Below, piece after piece: positions 36,506 to 41,770 of a stretch of DNA of 41,770 bases. The notes beneath the pieces are model-generated. The model did not search any database, had not been told where the DNA came from, and saw only the letters and a program-made list of their open reading frames with translations. The stretch's first letter is position 1; every line of letters begins with the position of its first letter. Both the position numbers and the translations under genes were made by a program. The DNA is from Candidatus Nitrosopumilus sp. (lineage in GTDB: Archaea > Thermoproteota > Nitrososphaeria > Nitrososphaerales > Nitrosopumilaceae), in contig JAOUNB010000009.1 of the NCBI GenBank assembly GCA_029881195.1, positions 1-41,770 on the forward strand. The letters are read 5' to 3'.

Positions 36506-37138
36506 ATGAATATGGAAAAATCTAACTTGGGAACTAAAAAATTGGGATTGTTTTTAATTACAGTTTTGTCCATATCACTATTTTCTGCAACTGCATCAGG
36601 CGATATGCAAGAAAATCCATCTACAATTATTGACTATGAGTCCCCTAAACTTTTCGTTCCTAATGATATCTACATCTTATCTAAAAATCCTATTCAAGTA
36701 GATTTCAAAGTGGAGGCAATAGACAATATTGATGGAAGAGTTCAGGTTCAATGCGATAAAATTTCAGGTGCTACTTTCAAACTAGGTAAGACAATTGTCA
36801 GATGCGAAACAAAAGATTCTGTTGGCAATACTAATAGAGCATCTTTTGTTGTGACTATTGGGTATAATATTGTTCAAATACCATCTTGGGTAAAACAGCC
36901 CACGACACTGTGGATTGAAAATTCAATAGACGACAAAACATATGCAAAAACAATGGGATTTCTAATCAAAGAACGACTAATTCATATCCCTTTTGCCAAA
37001 AGTCCAAATTATTCTGAATCTGAAATTCCAATATGGATTAAGACTAATGCTAAATCGTGGATTGACAATGAAATTTCTGATGATGAATACTCTATAATAT
37101 TACAATGGCTGCTTAATCGAAATATCATTCAGCTTTAA
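36506..37138 (+). CDS. Secreted HYR-like protein with two tryptophan-rich repeats
   Basis: 210 residues. A signal peptide (about 8-30, SLFSATASGD) precedes an HYR-like immunoglobulin domain (about 45-120: DNIDGRVQVQCDKISGATFKLGKTIVRC, with a disulfide-possible Cys pair, then SVGNTNRASFVVTI). Two copies of the roughly 40-residue thaumarchaeal repeat follow: IPSWVKQPTTLWIENSIDDK at about 126 and IPIWIKTNAKSWIDNEISDD at about 174, each with two Trp and a run of Ile/Leu after it. This repeat is common on cell-surface proteins of the group; its function is unknown. It lies between tRNA-Lys and tRNA-Pro. Confidence 0.75.
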   Translation: MNMEKSNLGTKKLGLFLITVLSISLFSATASGDMQENPSTIIDYESPKLFVPNDIYILSKNPIQVDFKVEAIDNIDGRVQVQCDKISGATFKLGKTIVRCETKDSVGNTNRASFVVTIGYNIVQIPSWVKQPTTLWIENSIDDKTYAKTMGFLIKERLIHIPFAKSPNYSESEIPIWIKTNAKSWIDNEISDDEYSIILQWLLNRNIIQL

Positions 37139-40991: not shown

Positions 40992-41770
40992 TTATTGTTT
41001 AGGTAGATTATTTTCTTCTAGATAATTATCCCAAGCTTTGATACCTCCATCTAACACTTGGAAATCTATACCATGTTGTGCTAGCTCATATGTTGCGATA
41101 GTTGCACGATTTCCTGAGCCACAAATAACAACTACTGGTTTATCAGTTGGAATTTCAGATAAATTTCCTTCAATAAAAATATCATCTAATGGAATATTTT
41201 TGCTTCCTGAGATCATAGTTGTTTCTAATTCAGAAGGTTCTCGTACATCAAGAAGATAGATGTCATCTTGATTTTGTATTTGCTGATATAATTCTTCAGA
41301 AGACATCAGGGTTGGAGTCATCTTTATTGCAAGGTCATTACCCCATGATTGAATTCCACCTGCAAGATAAGATGTTTTGATACCTGCATTATTCATTATT
41401 TGTACCGAATCTGCTGTTTTACTTTCAGAATCACCAACAAGTACTACATGGATATTTTCCATTACTTTAGGAATTCTATCAAACATAGTATTAATTCTCT
41501 TTTCAAGAGTTGCACCTTCCATTACATCAACCGAAGAGCCTTCAATATGTCCGTTCATGTACAAATTTGAATCTCGCATATCGATAACAATAAGATTAGG
41601 ATCTAAAGTCATTTTTTGTTCTAATTCACTTGGAAGTAATGAAAATGATTCATTTGAATTCATAGATGAAGAGATAATACATTCACCGTGATGTTGCATT
41701 GCCATATGTTCAGCATTAAGACCACACATATTCCCATATGTTACTCCATCAACCCCACATATGGGATTGT
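40992..41770 (-). CDS. Kazal-type inhibitor domain fused to tandem rhodanese domains (5' end cut by window)
   Basis: The frame is open to the window edge, so the N-terminus and start lie outside it. The first visible residues are NPICGVDGVTYGNMCGLNAE, then EHMAMQHHGEC: the Kazal signature C-G-x-D-G-x-T-Y-x-N-x-C. Two rhodanese domains follow: the first (about 30-130 residues in from the Kazal Cys) lacks the catalytic Cys (VVLVGDSES), and the second has the active CGSGNRA loop (Cys at 41121-41123). DVREPSELETTMISGSKNIP and LDGGIKAWDN are the other rhodanese hallmarks. A Kazal domain would be extracellular, so the whole protein should be secreted, and sulfur transfer outside the cell is implied. 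This combination is uncommon. Confidence 0.8.
   Translation of the reverse strand, partial: NPICGVDGVTYGNMCGLNAEHMAMQHHGECIISSSMNSNESFSLLPSELEQKMTLDPNLIVIDMRDSNLYMNGHIEGSSVDVMEGATLEKRINTMFDRIPKVMENIHVVLVGDSESKTADSVQIMNNAGIKTSYLAGGIQSWGNDLAIKMTPTLMSSEELYQQIQNQDDIYLLDVREPSELETTMISGSKNIPLDDIFIEGNLSEIPTDKPVVVICGSGNRATIATYELAQHGIDFQVLDGGIKAWDNYLEENNLPKQ

Follow-up and report, generated by a model that had tools for sequence, protein, structure and literature searches.

A Kazal-rhodanese fusion gene of Nitrosopumilaceae and the recurrent cassette at its N-terminus

The moth protein GmSPI-2, which contains two disulfides, is a potent inhibitor of subtilisin and proteinase K and is able to protect a target protein that is fused to it (PMC4169406). 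Among archaea, a Kazal-type inhibitor (arCOG10350) has been described in a sponge-associated thaumarchaeon, where it was reported as an orthologous group unique to one symbiont (PMC6697440). Here, we analyzed a stretch of 41,770 nucleotides of Candidatus Nitrosopumilus sp. (the window), at the edge of which a reading frame had been predicted to join a Kazal domain to two rhodanese domains. Among the open-access papers searched, six mention both Kazal and rhodanese, and none of these, judged by its title, concerns such a fusion. Every domain involved is known; their combination, and the wide use of a Kazal cassette by Nitrosopumilaceae, are apparently undescribed in the literature searched.

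Gene structure and orthologues of the fusion

The window corresponds to contig C57 of genome G000, which comprises 1.59 Mb in 143 contigs and is 99% complete. According to the original prediction, the frame continues past its first ATG (41729) to the window edge, and this is indeed the case: on the minus strand, the frame 41768..40992 is open to the edge, and the ATG is an internal codon. The last 127 bases of C57 (41644..41770) match exactly the first 127 bases of C117, a second contig of this genome, and no third copy of this stretch was found there. As 127 is a typical k-mer overlap length, C57 and C117 are probably adjacent in a de Bruijn graph with k=127. Joining them through the identical overlap results in a 410-residue gene that begins with GTG at C117:581 (-), which places the real start some 165 residues before the ATG. 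The 5' part of the gene is present on C117:1-581 (-) (locus L003), and its C-terminal 258 codons plus the stop are present at 40992..41768 (-) of the window, as deduced from the open frame, the overlap, the joined translation and an uninterrupted orthologue (L039 of genome G076). Neither a stop codon nor a frameshift, both of which were looked for, separates the Kazal stretch from the ATG in the joined gene. In an alignment with the G076 relative, the GTG coincides with the ATG at which that gene starts, and a TATA-like A/T-rich stretch, CTTTAAATTTAATTTAAA, located about 30 bases upstream of the start, is conserved in both genomes.

Directly upstream of the start in G000 is a gene for tRNA-Val (tac; L003:714-790 (-)). 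A link between the fusion and tRNA genes was rejected: the 12 kb that surround the G076 gene yielded no tRNA, and the nearest one in a third genome, G040, is kilobases away. Elsewhere in the window, the ORF at 36506-37138 (+) has a signal-like N-terminus and a HYR-like region and, judged by eye, possibly encodes another surface protein.

The same architecture, which the original prediction suggested might be sought in other thaumarchaea, was found in three of 250 Nitrosopumilaceae genomes, G000 included, a lower bound because some of these genomes are fragmentary. In Nitrosopumilus sp. 8_1_Jan_SF_Bin66 (G076), the gene is complete and uninterrupted on one contig and is 81% identical, and all 11 cysteines are located at the same positions. 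The fusion of Nitrosopumilus sp. PfA (G040, L040) is 66-69% identical and contains a frameshift in the second rhodanese domain. The presence of the fusion in only three genomes, in one of them frameshifted, indicates that it is not essential. The dN/dS ratio between G000 and G076 (Nei-Gojobori) is 0.16 overall, with values of 0.11 for the Cys pairs, 0.21 for WING-49, 0.20 for both the Kazal domain and rhodanese domain 1, and 0.06 for residues 301-410 (rhodanese domain 2). Thus, both halves of the fusion are under purifying selection, which is strongest on the active rhodanese domain.

These data bear on the possibility that the gene is an assembly chimera of two unrelated genes, linked through a repeated Kazal module common to both, or a decayed, non-functional relic. 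The contig break does fall inside the shared Kazal module, and the frameshift in G040 would fit decay. However, on contig C57 alone the C-terminal half of the Kazal domain already continues into the rhodanese pair, and the complete G076 gene on a single contig contradicts a chimera. The dN/dS of 0.16 argues against both origins, and we therefore consider them extremely improbable.

In a tree of the N-terminal region, G000 groups with G076 (support 87/73) and not with G040, and a rhodanese tree of six rows did not resolve; together, the two trees are compatible with one origin of the fusion or with several. A conserved operon was rejected, as the genes around the fusion are not the same in G000, G076 and G040, except for a multi-copy family of ~140-aa proteins. 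Hence, the gene neighbourhood provides no pathway context that favours sulfur chemistry.

Domains of the 410-residue protein

Extension of the frame beyond position 41770 revealed a hydrophobic N-terminus that ends in PIFA and is predicted to be a signal (residues 1-22), in line with the extracellular location originally suggested. Ala22 is nearly invariant, and an N-terminal hydrophobic segment is present in 61 of 61 Kazal ORFs. The fusion protein is thus probably exported by a Sec-type signal. The signal is immediately followed by a His/Met-rich stretch (residues 23-52), the sequence of which is poorly conserved, by two Cys-pair motifs in residues 54-81 (C54/C65 and C71/C81, pairing assumed), and by a WING-49 domain (residues 93-140), which scores 65.4 bits against the NCBIfam profile NF058652 (cut-off 22). 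The N-terminal modules contain 10 of the 11 cysteines of the protein.

The Kazal domain comprises residues 143-182, with cysteines C148, C156, C167 and C182, after which a linker follows. Residues 143-152, including the first of the four cysteines and P1 Met150, are encoded on C117, and residues 153-182 (NPICGVDGVTYGNMCGLNAEHMAMQHHGEC) are encoded at 41679..41768 (-) of the window. The truncated 258-aa product already matches Pfam Kazal_1 (PF00050) with 26.4 bits (E 7e-6; cut-off 21), and restoring the N-terminus raises the score to 43.9 bits (E 2.3e-11), which bears out the predicted Kazal signature. Among PDB entries, the domain is most closely related to ovomucoid domains and silk protease inhibitor 2, and also to agrin repeats. 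The domain differs from the classical six-cysteine, three-disulfide Kazal domain in having four cysteines, with C1 and C5 absent, and it has the C-x7-C-x10-C-x14-C spacing and the seven-residue reactive-site loop of the GmSPI-2 type. The loop residues are Cys-Thr-Met-Glu-Tyr. One Kazal domain of G000 matches GmSPI-2 at 4.2e-14. This genome also codes for two subtilases of family S8; one of them bears hydrophobic segments at each terminus, and the other begins with a signal-like sequence.

The Pfam Rhodanese profile (PF00581) matches two stretches of the whole protein above the cut-off (93.7 bits, E 1e-26), and they correspond to the one inactive and one active domain that had been foreseen. 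In domain 1 (approximately residues 197-298; 41331..41636 (-); E 1.6e-9 for the fragment alone), alignment with domain 2 places Gly264 at the position of the catalytic cysteine (VVLVGDSESK). Domain 2 (residues 309-399; 41028..41300 (-)) contains a CxxxxR active-site loop, CGSGNR, from Cys368 to Arg373 (41106..41123 (-)), with the cysteine at the same position in G076. Cys368 is the only cysteine outside the N-terminal modules and hence the single catalytic candidate, through which the rhodanese pair would probably transfer sulfur. The genome also encodes a Rhod-Rhod-MBL protein (G000:C96; L086:5217-6674 (-)), in which the rhodanese domains come first and no signal is evident; its rhodanese half and the pair of the fusion share 35% identity over 212 residues. 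The MBL part of this protein matches the persulfide dioxygenases ETHE1 and BpPRF, which suggests that the rhodanese pair of the fusion shares ancestry with persulfide handling. The 410-aa protein itself gave no Pfam match to an MBL domain and is thus not a persulfide dioxygenase-rhodanese fusion. An AlphaFold model built from 13 rows had a pLDDT of 37 and was discarded, so that the fold assignments are based on sequence profiles.

A recurrent cassette in Nitrosopumilaceae

The first ~185 residues of the fusion protein, containing the Cys pairs, WING-49 and the Kazal domain, form a cassette that recurs in other proteins. Kazal_1 was detected in 41 of 398 Thermoproteota genomes (163 genera), and all 41 belong to Nitrosopumilaceae (6 genera); G000 encodes three Kazal proteins (C57/C117, C24 and C82). 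The partners of the cassette in this family are an MBL-fold domain, DUF4377, an SNase-like domain, a cupredoxin, the rhodanese pair, or none. The 33 cassette ORFs fetched comprise 12 with DUF4377 plus MBL, seven with SNase, four without partner, three each with MBL, DUF4377 or the rhodanese pair, and one with a cupredoxin; these counts are not frequencies, because the ORFs were picked by match score and some are possibly present twice in different extents. Forms with MBL or with DUF4377 are also present in genomes assembled as one contig. Since the cassette is common to unrelated exported enzymes, it is not specific to sulfur chemistry. The original prediction was right about the Kazal domain, the rhodanese pair, the archaeal source and the likely export signal, and missed the N-terminal half, the shared cassette and the rarity of the fusion.

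Kazal domains lacking the cassette are mostly joined to cupredoxins, and also to DUF1254/1214 and CHRD-like domains, the latter recognized by eye and not by a Pfam match. One protein of G000 (C24; L036:567-1901) consists of a membrane-anchored Kazal domain and two cupredoxin domains, and similar proteins recur across Nitrosopumilaceae. A protein of another genome (G004, L065:1267-3051) has a hydrophobic N-terminus, a WING-49-like stretch identified by eye, a Kazal domain and DUF1254/DUF1214.

Rhodanese pairs that are 76-80% identical to that of the window carry other N-termini: WING-49 in G059, an SNase-like domain in G024, and a membrane anchor alone in G006. The G024 protein (L010:1498-2709 (-)), whose pair is 76% identical, represents another domain swap. 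More distant, membrane-anchored rhodanese pairs (L030 and L031, in G044 and G088) end in long His/Met-rich tails whose sequence resembles copper-binding sequences.

We also compared 56 distinct archaeal Kazal domains. Their common spacing is C-x7-C-x10-C-x14-C, of which C-x14-C is observed and the earlier spacings are partly imposed, because the regular expression used prescribed the distances between the first three cysteines and left a range for the fourth. Four cysteines are present in 55 of the 56 domains, and C1 and C5 are absent in nearly all; their joint absence is the pattern expected from loss of one disulfide. Thr occupies P2 in 55 of 56 domains, the P1 residue is Met in 31, Leu in 15, Lys in 8, and Arg and Ser in one each, and all 56 have Glu, Gln or Asp at P1' and Tyr or Trp at P2'. 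Judged by their sequences, the reactive-site residues of the archaeal domains are canonical.

Possible function and comparison with known systems

We hold, with about even confidence, that the fusion protein is an exported sulfane-sulfur transferase whose portable Kazal cassette acts as an inhibitor of subtilisin-like proteases outside the cell, and that it is related to the cytoplasmic Rhod-Rhod-MBL protein. In such a protein, the Sec-type signal would be removed after ...PIFA, Cys368 of rhodanese domain 2 would bear sulfane sulfur as a persulfide, and domain 1, having lost its catalytic cysteine, would be structural or regulatory. We infer that outside the cell the Kazal loop, with Met150 at P1, would bind subtilisin-like proteases in the standard substrate-like mode, and that this binding would serve to shield the attached enzyme and its surroundings from proteolysis. 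The cassette would give the same protection to several unrelated exported enzymes. That the enzyme may be guarded against proteases, as originally suggested, is plausible given the canonical loop, a four-cysteine type that is also that of a proven subtilisin inhibitor, and the two subtilases encoded. More tentatively, one exported Kazal cassette may serve marine ammonia-oxidising archaea as general armour that was recombined onto the rhodanese pair, an MBL hydrolase, a nuclease, DUF4377 and copper proteins. With the same reserve, we suggest that each of these enzymes might bear its own protease inhibitor, as a natural counterpart of the engineered GmSPI-2 fusions.

The main rival, which we rate as rather unlikely, is that the cassette is a non-inhibitory binding or anchoring module, directed to the S-layer, the cell surface or a partner, that localises various exported enzymes. 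The Kazal-like domains of follistatin and agrin are not primarily inhibitors, so that such a role is possible. It would be consistent with the agrin repeats among the PDB matches, with the presence of the cassette in many different exported proteins, and with the constant pairing of the Kazal domain with other small Cys-rich modules (Cys pairs and WING-49). However, the loop keeps the inhibitor consensus, with Met, Leu, Lys or Arg at P1 in 55 of 56 domains, and the PDB match with equal cysteine spacing is a proven inhibitor. The cassette might instead target a subtilase of the cell itself, the fused enzyme being recruited to, or controlling, an endogenous extracellular protease; the two S8 subtilases with hydrophobic or signal-like termini could be such targets. 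We consider this improbable, as the subtilase matches of G000 (C66 and C12) are on different contigs from the Kazal genes and the variation of P1 between Met, Leu and Lys suggests several targets. Extracellular copper or thiol handling by the His/Met-rich stretch and the rhodanese thiol chemistry, with the Kazal domain incidental, seems very improbable. His/Met-rich N-termini do recur in cassette proteins, the distant rhodanese pairs L030 and L031 bear His/Met-rich tails, and cupredoxins are frequent among the Kazal partners of the family, but the stretch of the fusion protein adjoins the signal and is poorly conserved.

Protease inhibition by the cassette, if it takes place as we propose, would show how very abundant marine archaea keep their exported enzymes intact in protease-rich water, biofilms or sponges, and it would yield a two-disulfide inhibitor tag. 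A further question prompted by the fusion is whether ammonia oxidisers carry out sulfane-sulfur chemistry outside the cell.

The Kazal domain of the fusion resembles GmSPI-2 in its four cysteines and their C-x7-C-x10-C-x14-C spacing, in lacking the C1-C5 disulfide, in loop length, and in having Thr at P2 and Glu at P1'. It differs in being an archaeal domain with Met at P1 within a multidomain, predicted exported protein, whereas GmSPI-2 is a free-standing insect silk peptide with Thr at P1. The residues around the scissile bond are nearly identical to those of the ovomucoid third domain OMTKY3 (ACTMEY in the fusion and ACTLEY in OMTKY3). OMTKY3 has three disulfides; the archaeal domain, in contrast, lacks C1 and C5. 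An inactive first and an active second rhodanese domain are shared with the C96 Rhod-Rhod-MBL protein and with the persulfide dioxygenase-rhodanese fusions to which that protein is similar, CstB and BpPRF (PDB 3r2u, 3tp9, 5ve3). Unlike the fusion protein, the C96 protein has neither a signal nor a Kazal cassette and contains an MBL dioxygenase-like domain. The Cys-pair, WING-49 and Kazal cassette is ~54-79% identical to those of other Nitrosopumilaceae proteins, in which the partner enzyme differs and DUF4377 in some cases precedes the cassette. Finally, the inhibitor of the sponge symbiont (PMC6697440) shares the Kazal-type annotation and the thaumarchaeal host; no rhodanese is mentioned for it, and the Kazal domains described here span Nitrosopumilaceae.
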